NCBI RefSeq assembly: GCF_045679555.1
Contig: NC_092089.1
Coordinates: 4,845,986-4,909,985 of the forward strand
Origin: Salvelinus alpinus
Taxonomy: Eukaryota > Chordata > Actinopteri > Salmoniformes > Salmonidae
DNA: 64,000 nt
Reading direction: 5' to 3'
The notes beneath the pieces were generated by a model that did not search any database, was not told the origin of the DNA, and worked only from the letters and a program-made list of their open reading frames with translations. Shown in pieces: positions 1,935-50,000 of this stretch (within the stretch, counting starts at the first letter, position 1; each line of letters starts with the position of its first letter). The position numbers were made by a program, and so were the translations under genes.

Positions 1935-2076
1935 CTGTTAGTGTAGATGGGACATTCCTCCGGTTTCAGCTTCAGACATTCGCTGTACGTCCTCAGAGCC
2001 TCCTGGAACTGGCCTTTCTTCACAAACTCATTTCCTTCTTGTTTCAGTGAATTGAAACAGACTTCTGCTTTTTGAG
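1935..2076 (-). CDS. spag1: spag1 exon 15 (start of TPR block 3); last exon in the window
   Basis: Acceptor TTTGCCTGCAG|CTCAAA, donor AACAG|GTAAGG. Reads [20 protein letters not shown], then [20 protein letters not shown] and CPIYTN. Human has LKEEGNQCVNDKNYKDALSK and IYTNRALCYLK. Ends in phase 2, so the Arg of YTNR is completed in the next exon, which is beyond base 1. The exon end and donor seed the 35-bp array at 247-1935. Confidence 0.93.
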
Positions 2077-5000
2077 CTGCAGGCAAAGGAAGAAACGGTG
2101 TTGGTTGAGTAAATGTGACATCATACTGAGTAACTTGACAATGTTTTTATTGTTTTTGTACGAATAGTATTTCACTAAAATAAGTGAGTGTGGTAATTTT
2201 GTCCTATAAATCCAGGGTAAAAACAGGTCAAATCAGCAGTCATGTGATAACGGACAGCTAATCAATTACACCACTGGGGTGTTCTGGGAAAAAAATGCCA
2301 GCTTCGTTCTTCCACTAATCACAGTTAAAATATACATGATGGTTGGCTGCAGCACGGCCCTGAGGCTGGGACTGGGACTGGGGCTAGGACTGAGGCTAGG
2401 GCTGGGACTGGGACTGAGGCTGGGACTGGGACTGGGGCTGGGACTGAGGCTGGGACTGGGACTGGGGCTGGGACTGGGACTGGGGCTAGGACTGAGGCTA
2501 GGGCTGGGACTGAGGCTAGGGCTGGGACTGAGGCTAGGACTGAGGCTAGGGCTAGGACTGAGGCTAGGACTGGGACTGAGGCTAGGACTGAGGCTAGGGC
2601 TAGGACTGGGGCTGGGACTGGGACTGGGGCTGGGACTGGGACTGGGACTGGGGCTGGGACTGGGACTGGGGCTGGGACTGGGACTGGGGCTGGGACTAGG
2701 ACTGGGGCTGGGACTAGGACTGGGGCTGGGACTGAGGCTAGGACTGGGGCTGGGACTGAGGCTGGGACTGGGACTGGGGCTGGGACTGGGGCTGGGACTA
2801 GGACTGGGGCTGGGACTAGGACTGGGGCTGGGACTAGGACTGGGGCTGGGACTGAGGCTAGGACTGGGGCTGGGACTGAGGCTAGGGCTGGGACTGAGGC
2901 TGGGGCTGGGGCTGGGACTGGGACTGGGGCTGGGACTAGGACTGGGGCTGGGACTGAGGCTGGGACTGGGACTGAGGCTAGGACTGGGGCTGGGACTGAG
3001 GCTGGGACTGGGACTGGGACTGGGGCTAGGACTGAGGCTGGGGCTGGGACTGAGGCTAGGACTGAGGCTAGGGCTAGGACTGGGGCTGGGACTGGGGCTG
3101 GGACTAGGACTGGGGCTGGGACTAGGACTGGGGCTGGGACTGGGACTGGGGCTGGGACTGGGACTGGGGCTGGGACTGGGACTGGGGCTGGGACTAGGAC
3201 TGGGGCTGGGACTAGGACTGGGGCTGGGACTAGGACTGGGGCTGGGACTAGGACTGGGGCTGGGACTAGGACTGGGGCTGGGACTGAGGCTAGGACTGGG
3301 GCTGGGACTGAGGCTGGGACTGGGACTGGGGCTGGGACTGGGACTGGGGCTGGGACTGGGACTGGGGCTGGGACTAGGACTGGGGCTGGGACTGGGACTC
3401 GGGCTGGGACTGGGGCTGGGACTAGGACTGGGGCTGGGACTAGGACTGGGGCTGGGACTAGGACTGGGGCTGGGACTAGGACTGGGGCTGGGACTGAGGC
3501 TAGGACTGGGGCTGGGACTGAGGCTGGGACTGGGACTGGGGCTGGGACTGGGGCTGGGACTAGGACTGGGGCTGGGACTAGGACTGGGGCTGGGACTAGG
3601 ACTGGGGCTGGGACTGAGGCTAGGACTGGGGCTGGGACTGAGGCTGGGACTGGGACTAGGACTGAGGCTAGGGCTGGGACTGAGGCTGGGGCTGGGGCTG
3701 GGGCTGGGACTAGGACTGGGGCTGGGACTAGGACTGGGGCTGGGACTGGGGCTGGGACTGGGACTGGGGCTGGGACTAGGACTGGGGCTGGGACTAGGAC
3801 TGGGGCTAGGACTGGGGCTGGGACTAGGACTGGGGCTGGGACTGAGGCTGGGACTGGGGCTGGGACTGAGGCTAGGACTGAAGCTGGGGCTGGGACTGGG
3901 ACTGAGGCTAGGACTGGGACGGGCTGGGGCTCGGGCTGGGACTGAGGCTGGGACTGGGGCTGGGACTGGGACTGGGACTGGGACTGAAGCTGGGGAATAG
4001 GGCTAGGGGGGCTAGTATGTCTCCTCTCTCTGTTCCACTAGTCCCCCTCCAGTCCTCCAGCAGACAGTATGTCTCCTCTCTCTGTTCCACTAGTCCCCCT
4101 CCAGTCCTCTAGCAGACAGTATGTCTCCTCTCTCTGTTCCACTAGTCCCCCTCCAGTCCTCTAGCAGACAGTATGTCTCCTCTCTCTGTTCCACTAGTCC
4201 CCCTCCAGTCCTCCAGCAGACAGTATGTCTCCTCTGTTCCACTAGTCCCCCTCCAGTCCTCTAGCAGACAGTATGTCTCCTCTGTTCCACTAGTCCCCCT
4301 CCAGTCCTCTAGCAGACAGTATGTCTCCTCTGTTCCACTAGTCCTCTAGCAGACAGTGTGTCTCCTCTGTTCCACTAGTCCCCCTCCAGTCCTCCAGCAG
4401 ACAGTATGTCTCCTCTCTCTGTACCACTAGTCCCCCTCCAGTCCTCCAGCAGACAGTATGTCTCCTCTCTCTGTTCCACTAGTCCCCCTCCAGTCCTCTA
4501 GCAGACAGTATGTCTCCTCTGTTCCACTAGTCCCCCTCCAGTCCTCTAGCAGACAGTATGTCTCCTCTCTTCCACTAGTCCCCCTCCAGTCCTCTAGCAG
4601 ACAGTATGTCTCCTCTCTCTGTTCCACTAGTCCCCCTCCAGTCCTCTAGCAGACAGTATGTCTCCTCTGTTCCACTAGTCCCCCTCCAGTCCTCCAGCAG
4701 ACAGTATGTCTCCTCTGTTCCACTAGTCCCCCTCCAGTCCTCTAGCAGACAGTATGTCTCCTCTGTTCCACTAGTCCCCCTCCAGTCCTCCAGCAGACAG
4801 TGTGTCTCCTGTAGACTATAAGACCTTTGAAGGTTCCAGCTCACAGCAGAAAGAGGATGAGGAATGATGATGATGATGATGCTTGCTGCACAGAAAATGC
4901 CACCCTATTCCCTATTGCACTGCGTTTAACCCTGGGCTCTGGCCAAAGGTAGTGCACTATAGAGGGAATAGGGTTATATAGGGCTCTGGCCAAAGGTAGT

Positions 5001-47000: not shown

Positions 47001-50000
47001 CTCGTTGCCTTTATCCTTCTCGCGGTTGGCAACGAGGACTTTCTCCTGTTCAGTCAACGCTACAAAGAACATACACATTGTATCATGAGGACTGAGCAAG
47101 AAGAGTCAAAAACTAAAAACTAGTGTGCATGAATTCATGATATAACTACAGAACAACACAAGAGGACTGAGCAAGAAGACTCAAAAACTAAAAACTAGTG
47201 TACATGAATTCATGATATAACTACAGAACAACACAAGAGGACTGAGCAAGAAGACTCAAAAACTAAAAACTAGTGTACATGAATTCATGATATAACTACA
47301 GAACAACACAAGAGGACTGAGCAAGAAGACTCAAAAACTAAAACGAGTGTGCATGAATTCATGATATAACTACAGAACAACACAAGAGGACTGAGCAAGA
47401 AGACTCAAAAACTAAAAACTAGTGTACATGAATTCATGATATAACTACAGAACAACACAAGAGGACTGAGCAAGAAGACTCAAAAACTAAAAACTACTGT
47501 ACATGAATTCATGATATAACTACAGAACACAATTAATTTATTTACACTTTGTGTAACCGTTAAAAGGAAATAACATCTCTGGGACACTAATGACACAGTC
47601 TAATAGGAGCCAAATATATCTTTCACCTGTTGTATCCATTTTGATCCTGATTTTTGGATGTCTAGAGTTTACAATTGCGGCGGGATCCTTTTTTGTTACA
47701 TTTCCATCAATTTTATCGCACTCCTTGTCGACATCAAACCTGCAATACAGAGTGATAAACATTGATAATATTGTCTAGGCATGATTCCTGGATCCCATAC
47801 ACGGATTACACAGCAGGAATAAACTACACTGGTCCCATTCTATATAATCAGGAGGAAGAACCTTCTAGACTCACTGGTCCCATTCTATATAATCAGGAGG
47901 AAGAACCTTCTAGACTCACTGGTCCCATTCTATATAATCAGGAGGAAGAACCTTCTAGACTCACTGGTCCCATTCTATATAATCAGGAGGAAGAACCTTC
48001 TAGACTCACTGGTCCCATTCTATATAATCAGGAGGAAGAACCTTCTAGACTCACTGGTCCCATTCTATATAATCAGGAGGAAGAACCTTCTAGACTCACT
48101 GGTCCCATTCTATATAATCAGGAGGAAGAACCTTCTAGACTCACTGGTCCCATTCTATATAATCAGGAGGAAGAACCTTCTAGACTCACTGGTCCCATTC
48201 TATATAATCAGGAGGAAGAACCTTCTAGACTCACTGGTCCCATTCTATATAATCAGGAGGAAGAACCTTCTAGACTCACTGGTCCCATTCTATATAATCA
48301 GGAGGAAGAACCTTCTAGACTCACTGGTCCCATTCTATATATTCAGGAGGAAGAACCTTCTAGACTCACTGGTCCCATTCTATATAATCAGGAGGAAGAT
48401 CCTATAGACTCACTGGTCCCATTCTATATAATCAGGAGGAAGAACCTTCTAGACTCACTGGTCCCATTCTATATAATCAGGAGGAAGAACCTTCTAGACT
48501 CACTGGTCCCATTCTATATAATCAGGAGGAAGAACCTTCTAGACTCACTGGTCCCATTCTATATAATTACGAGGAAGAACATTCTTTGTCCGTGCAGTTT
48601 TCTTCTGTCCATTTGAAACTGTATTCTGCAACACAATTTAGAATATAAGTTCTAGTCATTTTCCTACTATTATCTGACAACACAAAATAATAGTATTTCC
48701 TTATAAAAACAGAGACTTTACCTGCTTGAGAGGAAGTGAGCAATTTGATCCACGTACTGGGGGCACGTTCTCAGTTTCAAGATCACGGAATAAAGATTGT
48801 TGTTTCAGCTCAGTTTCACTCATTTTGGCATCTGTCTCCCACTTCTGTAAAAGTGGAAACAGTGTGGTGAATATTAGGTTAAGTCAGCTACTTAAAGACG
48901 TGTGTATCAGTCTCATTAGCTACAGTGGTACTACTGGTACACTACTATGGTATTACTACTAATACAAAAGTCTCAATGCCACTTCCAAGTGTTGTTACAA
49001 AGTCACTGATCTCTGTTAACCCAGAACTAAAATCTTGCATAATTTTTGGTCAGATGCTTGATGTTTACGTAGTCTCTCCACGACACATTACAAAGTCAAA
49101 TTAGGACAGGGAGACGCCCCCCAAAACCTTTGAGACGACGTCGTGTGGCAAGGGGGGACAGTACCTTGAGTTCGTCAGCGATCTGACTCCATTCATCTCC
49201 AGAGAAGCAGGCGGCGGTGGCTGGGGGATTGTCCTTTCTGAGGGCACGACTTGTCGGGTCCAACCTCTCCAGACGACTCTCACAGAACTGTATCAGATGG
49301 GGATAGATACCCTCATCTCCAGACCTGTAGTAAAAGAGTTGACAGTGAATTTCATAACATCTATCAGCATAACACAGAGGTGTTCACTTGGCTGGCATAA
49401 TAGTCCTCAGGAACAAAAAAATAGCATGTTGATCCCCATTTCAGTTCTGAATTAGTTTGTACTATTTTGTGCAACTCTTTTGTCCATTTCTCACATAGAG
49501 ATTGTTATGTTAAAAACCACCAGCTGTAGCCTAGACCTAGCCTAACTGTAGCCTAGACCTAGCTTAACTAGCCTAACTGTAGCCTAGACCTAGCCTAACT
49601 AGCCTAACTGTAGCCTAGACCTAGCCTAACTGTAGCCTAGACCTAGCCTAACTAGCCTAACTGTAGCCGAGACCTAGCCTAACTAGCCTAACTGTAGCCT
49701 AGACCTAGCCTAACTAGCCTAACTGTAGCCTAGACCTAGCCTAACTGTAGCCTAGACCTAGCCTAACTAGCCTAACTGTAGCCTAGACCTAGCTTAACTA
49801 GCCTAACTGTAGCCTAGACCTAGCCTAACTAGCCTAACTGTAGCCTAGACCTAGCCTAACTGTAGCCTAGACCTAGCCTAACTAGCCTAACTGTAGCCTA
49901 GATCTAGCCTAACTAGCCTAACTGTAGCCTAGACCTAGCCTAACTGTAGCCTAGACCTAGCCTAACTAGCCTAACTGTAGCCTAGACCTAGCCTAACTAG

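Follow-up and report, generated by a model that had tools for sequence, protein, structure and literature searches.

In a stretch of 64,000 nucleotides from Salvelinus alpinus (contig NC_092089.1, positions 4,845,986 to 4,909,985 of the forward strand; hereafter, the window), 6 of the 28 exon ends of the spag1 gene are each the terminal copy of a tandem array, whose repeated unit comprises the splice site along with 7 to 32 bases of the adjoining exon. The arrays are located at the donors of exons 5, 8, 13 and 15, and at the acceptors of exons 9 and 12. All six had been indicated in a preliminary description, made from the sequence alone, and its copy numbers (16, 11, 53 and 48 donors, 14 and 7 acceptors) are equal to those obtained by recounting; exon bases are indeed contained in the units, while the range initially given for them, 9 to 24, does not stand and is replaced by the measured one. 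The best explanation, and a likely one, is that ordinary minisatellite birth included the exon-intron boundaries at a near-random rate, the outcome being tolerated via the exon-adjacent site.

The gene lies on the minus strand of the window, where 14 joined exons (2 to 15, 1935..50380) generate a single, stop-free frame of 693 amino acids (aa). Along its whole length the product shows 100% identity to sperm-associated antigen 1 of Salvelinus alpinus (P0001, 968 aa); it also matches human full-length SPAG1 (chain 9hb4_G) with an E value of 1.7e-189, and features TPR repeats; the gene continues past the left edge of the window, beyond exon 15. In the protein searches only the candidates sharing most words with the query were scored, and the matches are cluster representatives. 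Exon 2 was started two bases before its ATG, where no splice site is present, and therefore one of the 28 exon ends is nominal.

The anatomy of the arrays, all on the minus strand, is as follows; exon limits come from the joined frame, for exon 5 also from the protein match, and the boundary is marked by a slash. Donor copies, and the acceptor copies of exon 12, were counted by core motif, allowing at most one mismatch and including the real site. At exon 5 (48549..48625; donor CCA/GTGAGT), an array with a 45-bp unit spans 47827..48585 and contains 16 donor copies, with about 32 exon bases per unit: 14 out of 16 intronic copies show two mismatches to these bases, the remaining two show three. 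Aligned rows number 17, against 16 core copies, for exon 5, as they also number 54 against 53 and 49 against 48; the 17th row at exon 5 is an alignment slip, probably over a truncated last copy. At exon 13 (9881..10033; donor CAG/GTAAAC), where the unit is 42 or 48 bp long, the array (7529..9894) contains 53 donor copies, and the 14 exon bases of the unit are reproduced without mismatch by all 53 intronic copies. The array at exon 15 (1935..2076; donor CAG/GTAAGG) is located at 246..1941 and contains 48 donor copies in 35-bp units, with as few as seven exon bases each: 38 copies match them with one mismatch at most, 19 of these exactly.

Exon 8 (46506..46636; donor AAG/GTACTG) borders an array of 39-bp units at 46093..46534, with 11 donor copies and 25 exon bases per unit, matched with zero to two mismatches in all ten copies compared. 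When translated, this array reads as 13-aa repeats, interrupted by a TAG in the second copy. The exon itself contains, at position 46539, the exact donor 9-mer AAGGTACTG, about 30 bases ahead of the real donor, and the coding sequence reads through it.

The two acceptor arrays have 53-bp units, with a 60-bp form at exon 9. The latter exon (44283..44389; acceptor TTTAAAG/CTCTCC) is preceded by an array spanning 44358..45121, with 14 acceptor copies and 32 exon bases per unit. A frame-breaking deletion of seven bases is found in 11 of the 13 upstream copies; the 60-bp form is kept in three of the 14, namely the outermost, an inner one and the exon's own. The shared loss (11 out of 14 copies) also creates a pyrimidine-rich CACAG within the unit. 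At exon 12 (19132..19231; acceptor TTAACAG/GATTGG), seven copies are counted at 19208..19576 by core motif, four by a stricter pattern; the units nearest the exon contain 24 exon bases, matched with two mismatches in two of the six upstream copies, the other four being more diverged.

The relationship between exons and arrays was evaluated by taking 40 bases, all of them exonic, at every exon end and scoring their match to the units of 39 arrays, with 20,000 shuffled pairs as the null. Five exon ends match their own adjacent array, with scores of 29.5, 24, 19, 17 and 14, while 99.9% of the shuffled pairs score 11 or less, with a maximum of 16.5. Four of the five are above every shuffle; exon 13, at 14, falls within the extreme tail of the null (P 0.0001). 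None of the remaining 22 exon ends that have a neighbouring array scores above 7, exon 15 (5.0) included. The earlier claim that chance would not give exon bases within the units thus holds for five ends (P 0.0001 or less each), the exon-15 score being within the null; likewise, the seeding of the units by the gene's own splice junctions, also proposed there, is firm at five exons and weaker at exon 15. This last is the weakest of the six cases, and its seven exon bases prove nothing alone. As its exon-only score lies within the null, the case rests on the whole junction and its register: CTAACAG/GTAAGG is found nowhere else in the window. The similarity of this array to the exon declines with distance (rho -0.60); no significant gradient is seen along the arrays of exons 5, 8, 9 and 12, and none can be computed for exon 13, as its 14 exon bases do not vary among the copies.

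In all six arrays bordering an exon, then, the splice site is inside the unit, and the units carry exon-coding bases in register with the boundary, weakly so at exon 15. Two more arrays, displaying splice-like motifs by eye, were rejected as junction arrays: the one at the donor of exon 14 (5781-6912), whose exon end scores 4.0, and the one at the acceptor of exon 7 (47087-47529), whose exon end scores 7.0, both within the null. That unrelated minisatellites came to lie near the exons by chance is rejected by the shuffle test. More broadly, an artefact of the assembly or a chance closeness of this kind is highly improbable, and largely refuted as to the existence of the arrays. Long arrays are prone to a wrong copy number, and the exon part of the exon-15 units is short and not significant by itself; yet five ends carry in-register, exon-bearing units above the shuffles, the six units (35 to 53 bases) find no comparable match in the rest of the window (best score 15.5), and the exon-9 unit recurs, with its variants, in a protein annotated from another species.

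This protein is the SPAG1-like isoform X2 of brook trout (P0003). Where exons 8 and 9 meet, it repeats the head of exon 9 as a 20-aa unit, with nine copies in total, eight of them additional; the repeats are missing from isoform X3 (P0002). Both isoforms are database protein models. The 20-aa unit corresponds to the 60-bp form of the charr unit, and the linker forms SLAD and FLAD are common to the charr array and the brook trout repeat. The number of copies is nine in the brook trout protein, against 14 acceptor copies in the one charr assembly. As read from these models, the exon-9 array is present in a second species, where it is annotated as coding, and is not peculiar to the charr assembly. 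Among 133 fetched proteins, all cluster representatives, no exon-9 20-aa repeat is found outside P0003. In an alignment of SPAG1 from charr, salmon, pike and human no insert is seen at any of the six junctions, which gives no sign of intron gain; such an alignment does not by itself show the intron positions of the relatives. Two other features of related proteins may be reported: Atlantic salmon SPAG1 isoform X1 (P0005) contains, in a later region, a 16-aa tandem repeat, ARGSPSNPRRPVPITE, three times, perhaps another exon-end array, and Coregonus clupeaformis SPAG1 isoform X2 (P0009) is devoid of the stretch encoded by exon 11.

The direction of copying was evaluated from the residues by which array copies differ from the charr exon; brook trout was represented by isoform X3, X2 being left out as belonging to the same species. 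At residue 512 charr exon 12 encodes E, while D is found in 7 of 7 relatives' proteins. Seven copies were aligned, one of which is the exon, and the other six have D as well. Three of the seven exon-12 copies have M at residue 511, as in Salmo salar and two Coregonus, while L is found in charr, brook trout and coho; M511 is kept in the distal units. When the differences carried by at least 40% of the copies are taken, four out of five equal the residue of a relative, compared to 7% of possible changes. Since the arrays often hold the state of the relatives where this differs from the charr exon, the exons are probably the source of the array units, for which these comparisons are good but not final evidence. 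The same grade applies to the suggestion that the exon-12 array may predate the charr-specific residue change. Three points weigh against this interpretation: the 40% cut was chosen after the data had been seen; when all 22 amino-acid differences are considered, four match relatives (P 0.066); and one of the matches, D165, is common to pike and Dallia only, and could be an independent change.

The six minisatellites would thus have started as small tandem duplications, with ends on either side of an exon-intron boundary, each expanding through slippage or unequal exchange; we infer slippage as the mechanism. The exon end would be the constrained terminal copy, the others sitting in the intron. 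The site nearest the exon body is presumably the one used, the joined exons giving the conserved protein.

Whether boundaries are hit more often than expected was evaluated by collapsing each array to one unit (11,979 bp, 28 exon ends) and placing 38 seeds randomly outside pure exon. Random seeding leads to an expected 3.7–3.8 boundary arrays, or 2.9 when composite periods are replaced by the short unit, compared to the six observed; the probability of six or more is 0.05–0.16, and 0.32 if any one-base overlap is counted. Multiplying intron length by 1.5 lowers it to 0.009–0.03, and multiplying it by 0.7 raises it to 0.19–0.44: a clearly significant excess would require the introns of the ancestor to have been longer by a factor of 1.5 or more. 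A local process repeatedly amplifying the boundaries, as first proposed, is not shown by these figures. Moreover, three arrays in three introns (4934-5500, 14064-18274 and 45187-45688) have a similar, unrelated unit, probably from one dispersed salmonid repeat; seeding is therefore opportunistic, and not confined to boundaries. Arrays seed on whatever sequence is present, boundaries included, and may do so slightly more readily near exons.

That some process directed to boundaries preferentially amplifies the junctions, for instance through R-loops or pausing during transcription at splice sites, or through a repair that exon-intron repeats would prime, is an unlikely alternative. It fits with the 11 arrays that overlap or adjoin an exon end within 30 nt (the six plus five others), for which P is 0.01–0.03 at the collapsed length, and 0.10–0.20 with introns 0.7 times as long. 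Purifying selection, in addition, should lower the random expectation, so that the observed count is conservative, and in the section on trout irak3 further exon-derived intronic repeats are described. On the other hand, the exon-overlapping arrays alone do not depart clearly from chance, as reported above; 32 of the 38 arrays do not overlap any exon end, three of them having one unrelated unit; and the breakpoints lie 7 to 32 bases into the exon and share no position. The near-exon excess leaves room for some preference for exon neighbourhoods and, together with the use of the collapsed gene as a mere stand-in for the introns of the ancestor, has to be set against near-random seeding. According to the latter, the duplications would belong to the general birth of minisatellites filling the spag1 introns, with a frequency at boundaries as expected from short ancestral introns.

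The copies of the splice sites are largely intact. The exact 9-mer of the real donor, this one included, is present in 16 of 16 core copies for exon 5, 11 of 11 for exon 8, 48 of 53 for exon 13 and 46 of 48 for exon 15. In wraparound alignments of the six arrays the splice-site window varies less than other parts of the unit in all but one, the exception being exon 13; this extra conservation is not significant in a circular-window test (combined P 0.055). Selection for or against the splice copies was rejected on the same test. Decay of the copies is thus not apparent, selection is not firmly indicated, and we infer that the copies are neutral.

Use of a distal site would mostly lead to a stop codon. 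Distal donors meet an in-frame stop in 15 out of 15 cases for exon 5, 52 out of 52 for exon 13, 47 out of 47 for exon 15 and nine out of ten for exon 8. The exception, at exon 8, is the second donor: its use would lengthen the product by 13 aa with the frame open, while the later nine meet a stop. Upstream acceptors meet a stop in 13 out of 13 cases for exon 9, and in all three translated, out of six, for exon 12. What would allow the arrays to persist is that exon definition still permits the choice of the exon-adjacent site, or that mis-spliced RNA is discarded.

It is quite improbable that the extra sites are functional, so that the arrays tune splicing, provide isoform diversity or allow controlled non-productive splicing. 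The integrity of most donor copies, the open second donor of charr exon 8 and the occurrence, in brook trout, of one isoform translating the exon-9 array next to one without it are all compatible with such a role. Almost every distal charr site tested, in contrast, leads to a stop; the frame is broken in most upstream exon-9 copies; conservation is not significantly higher in splice-site windows than in the remaining unit; and the brook trout isoforms are database models, the insert being found in only 1 of the 133 fetched proteins.

Minisatellites bearing splice sites are already known. In 1995, Turri, Cuin and Porter (NAR 23:1854) reportedly described the IFI6 minisatellite, with multiple splice donors. 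In the account given in PMC4526556, the repeat units of this human minisatellite (IFI6, or 6-16) act as downstream donor sites and generate several mRNAs, and in this respect, a minisatellite with several donor sites, IFI6 resembles charr spag1. The two differ in number and outcome: reportedly a single donor boundary, at one exon end, for IFI6, six boundaries of both kinds and up to 53 donor copies for spag1, where nearly all distal copies lead to stops. In trout irak3, also a salmonid gene, the first 15–17 bases of an exon are repeated directly upstream, and other exon pieces are found in the introns; here copies are few and mentioned in passing, and the section concerned describes no donor-side array of dozens of sites. 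For variable internal tandem repeats in human segmental duplications, boundary minisatellite variation is discussed in PMC2812944 as a possible source of novel introns and alternative transcripts; these repeats have an average of four units of 30 bp, and half of them alter the coding sequence, mostly by lengthening amino-acid repeats, whereas in charr spag1 it is the intron that lengthens, with no change to the coding sequence. Tandem genomic duplication of a segment bearing a splice site produces a second potential site, and is considered a source of introns and splice sites (PMC3443670); the case treated there is a new intron inside an exon, while in spag1 an existing boundary is multiplied. 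Within the open-licence literature searched, no published report of six boundary arrays in one gene was found, in line with the initial statement that none was known at several exons of a single gene. What is new here is that so many boundaries, of both polarities, are involved in one gene, along with how many copies there are and the residues they retain.

The boundary arrays are part of a gene largely made of repeats: tandem repeat accounts for 40,249 of the 50,155 bases (about 80%) of the spag1 span, 246-50,400, and for 78% of bases 2-52,000. One single array in the gene is 6.2 kb long (28228-34434). The exons not bordered by the arrays described above are, on the same strand and from the same joined frame, exons 2 (50380-50227), 3 (49324-49165), 4 (48844-48722), 6 (47739-47627), 7 (47059-46954), 10 (41976-41856), 11 (35241-34804) and 14 (7084-6927). 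Outside the gene, a repeat on the plus strand at 59908-61216 has an acceptor-like unit, CTGTCTGTTTCAG/GGTG, and open stretches on the minus strand at 54219-54977 may, by impression, be a retroelement fragment.

A wider and doubtful idea is that salmonid exon-intron junctions might be hot spots of tandem amplification, where exon ends and intronic copies would exchange sequence, the intron storing older versions of the exon, readable into protein when the frame allows, in the way brook trout exon 9 is annotated. More directly, charr spag1 offers six natural experiments in splice-site competition: in each of them a single exon is flanked by 7 to 53 sites that are nearly identical, and the readout is clear, because most distal sites would give a stop. 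The choice among copies is a testable question, and the arrays can reveal by what means exon definition prevails over identical decoys and how much mis-splicing is tolerated. Some of them seem to keep older states of the exon, and can thereby be dated. The gene can also show how an intronic array becomes coding, a step for which the brook trout database protein already provides eight extra repeats of 20 aa.

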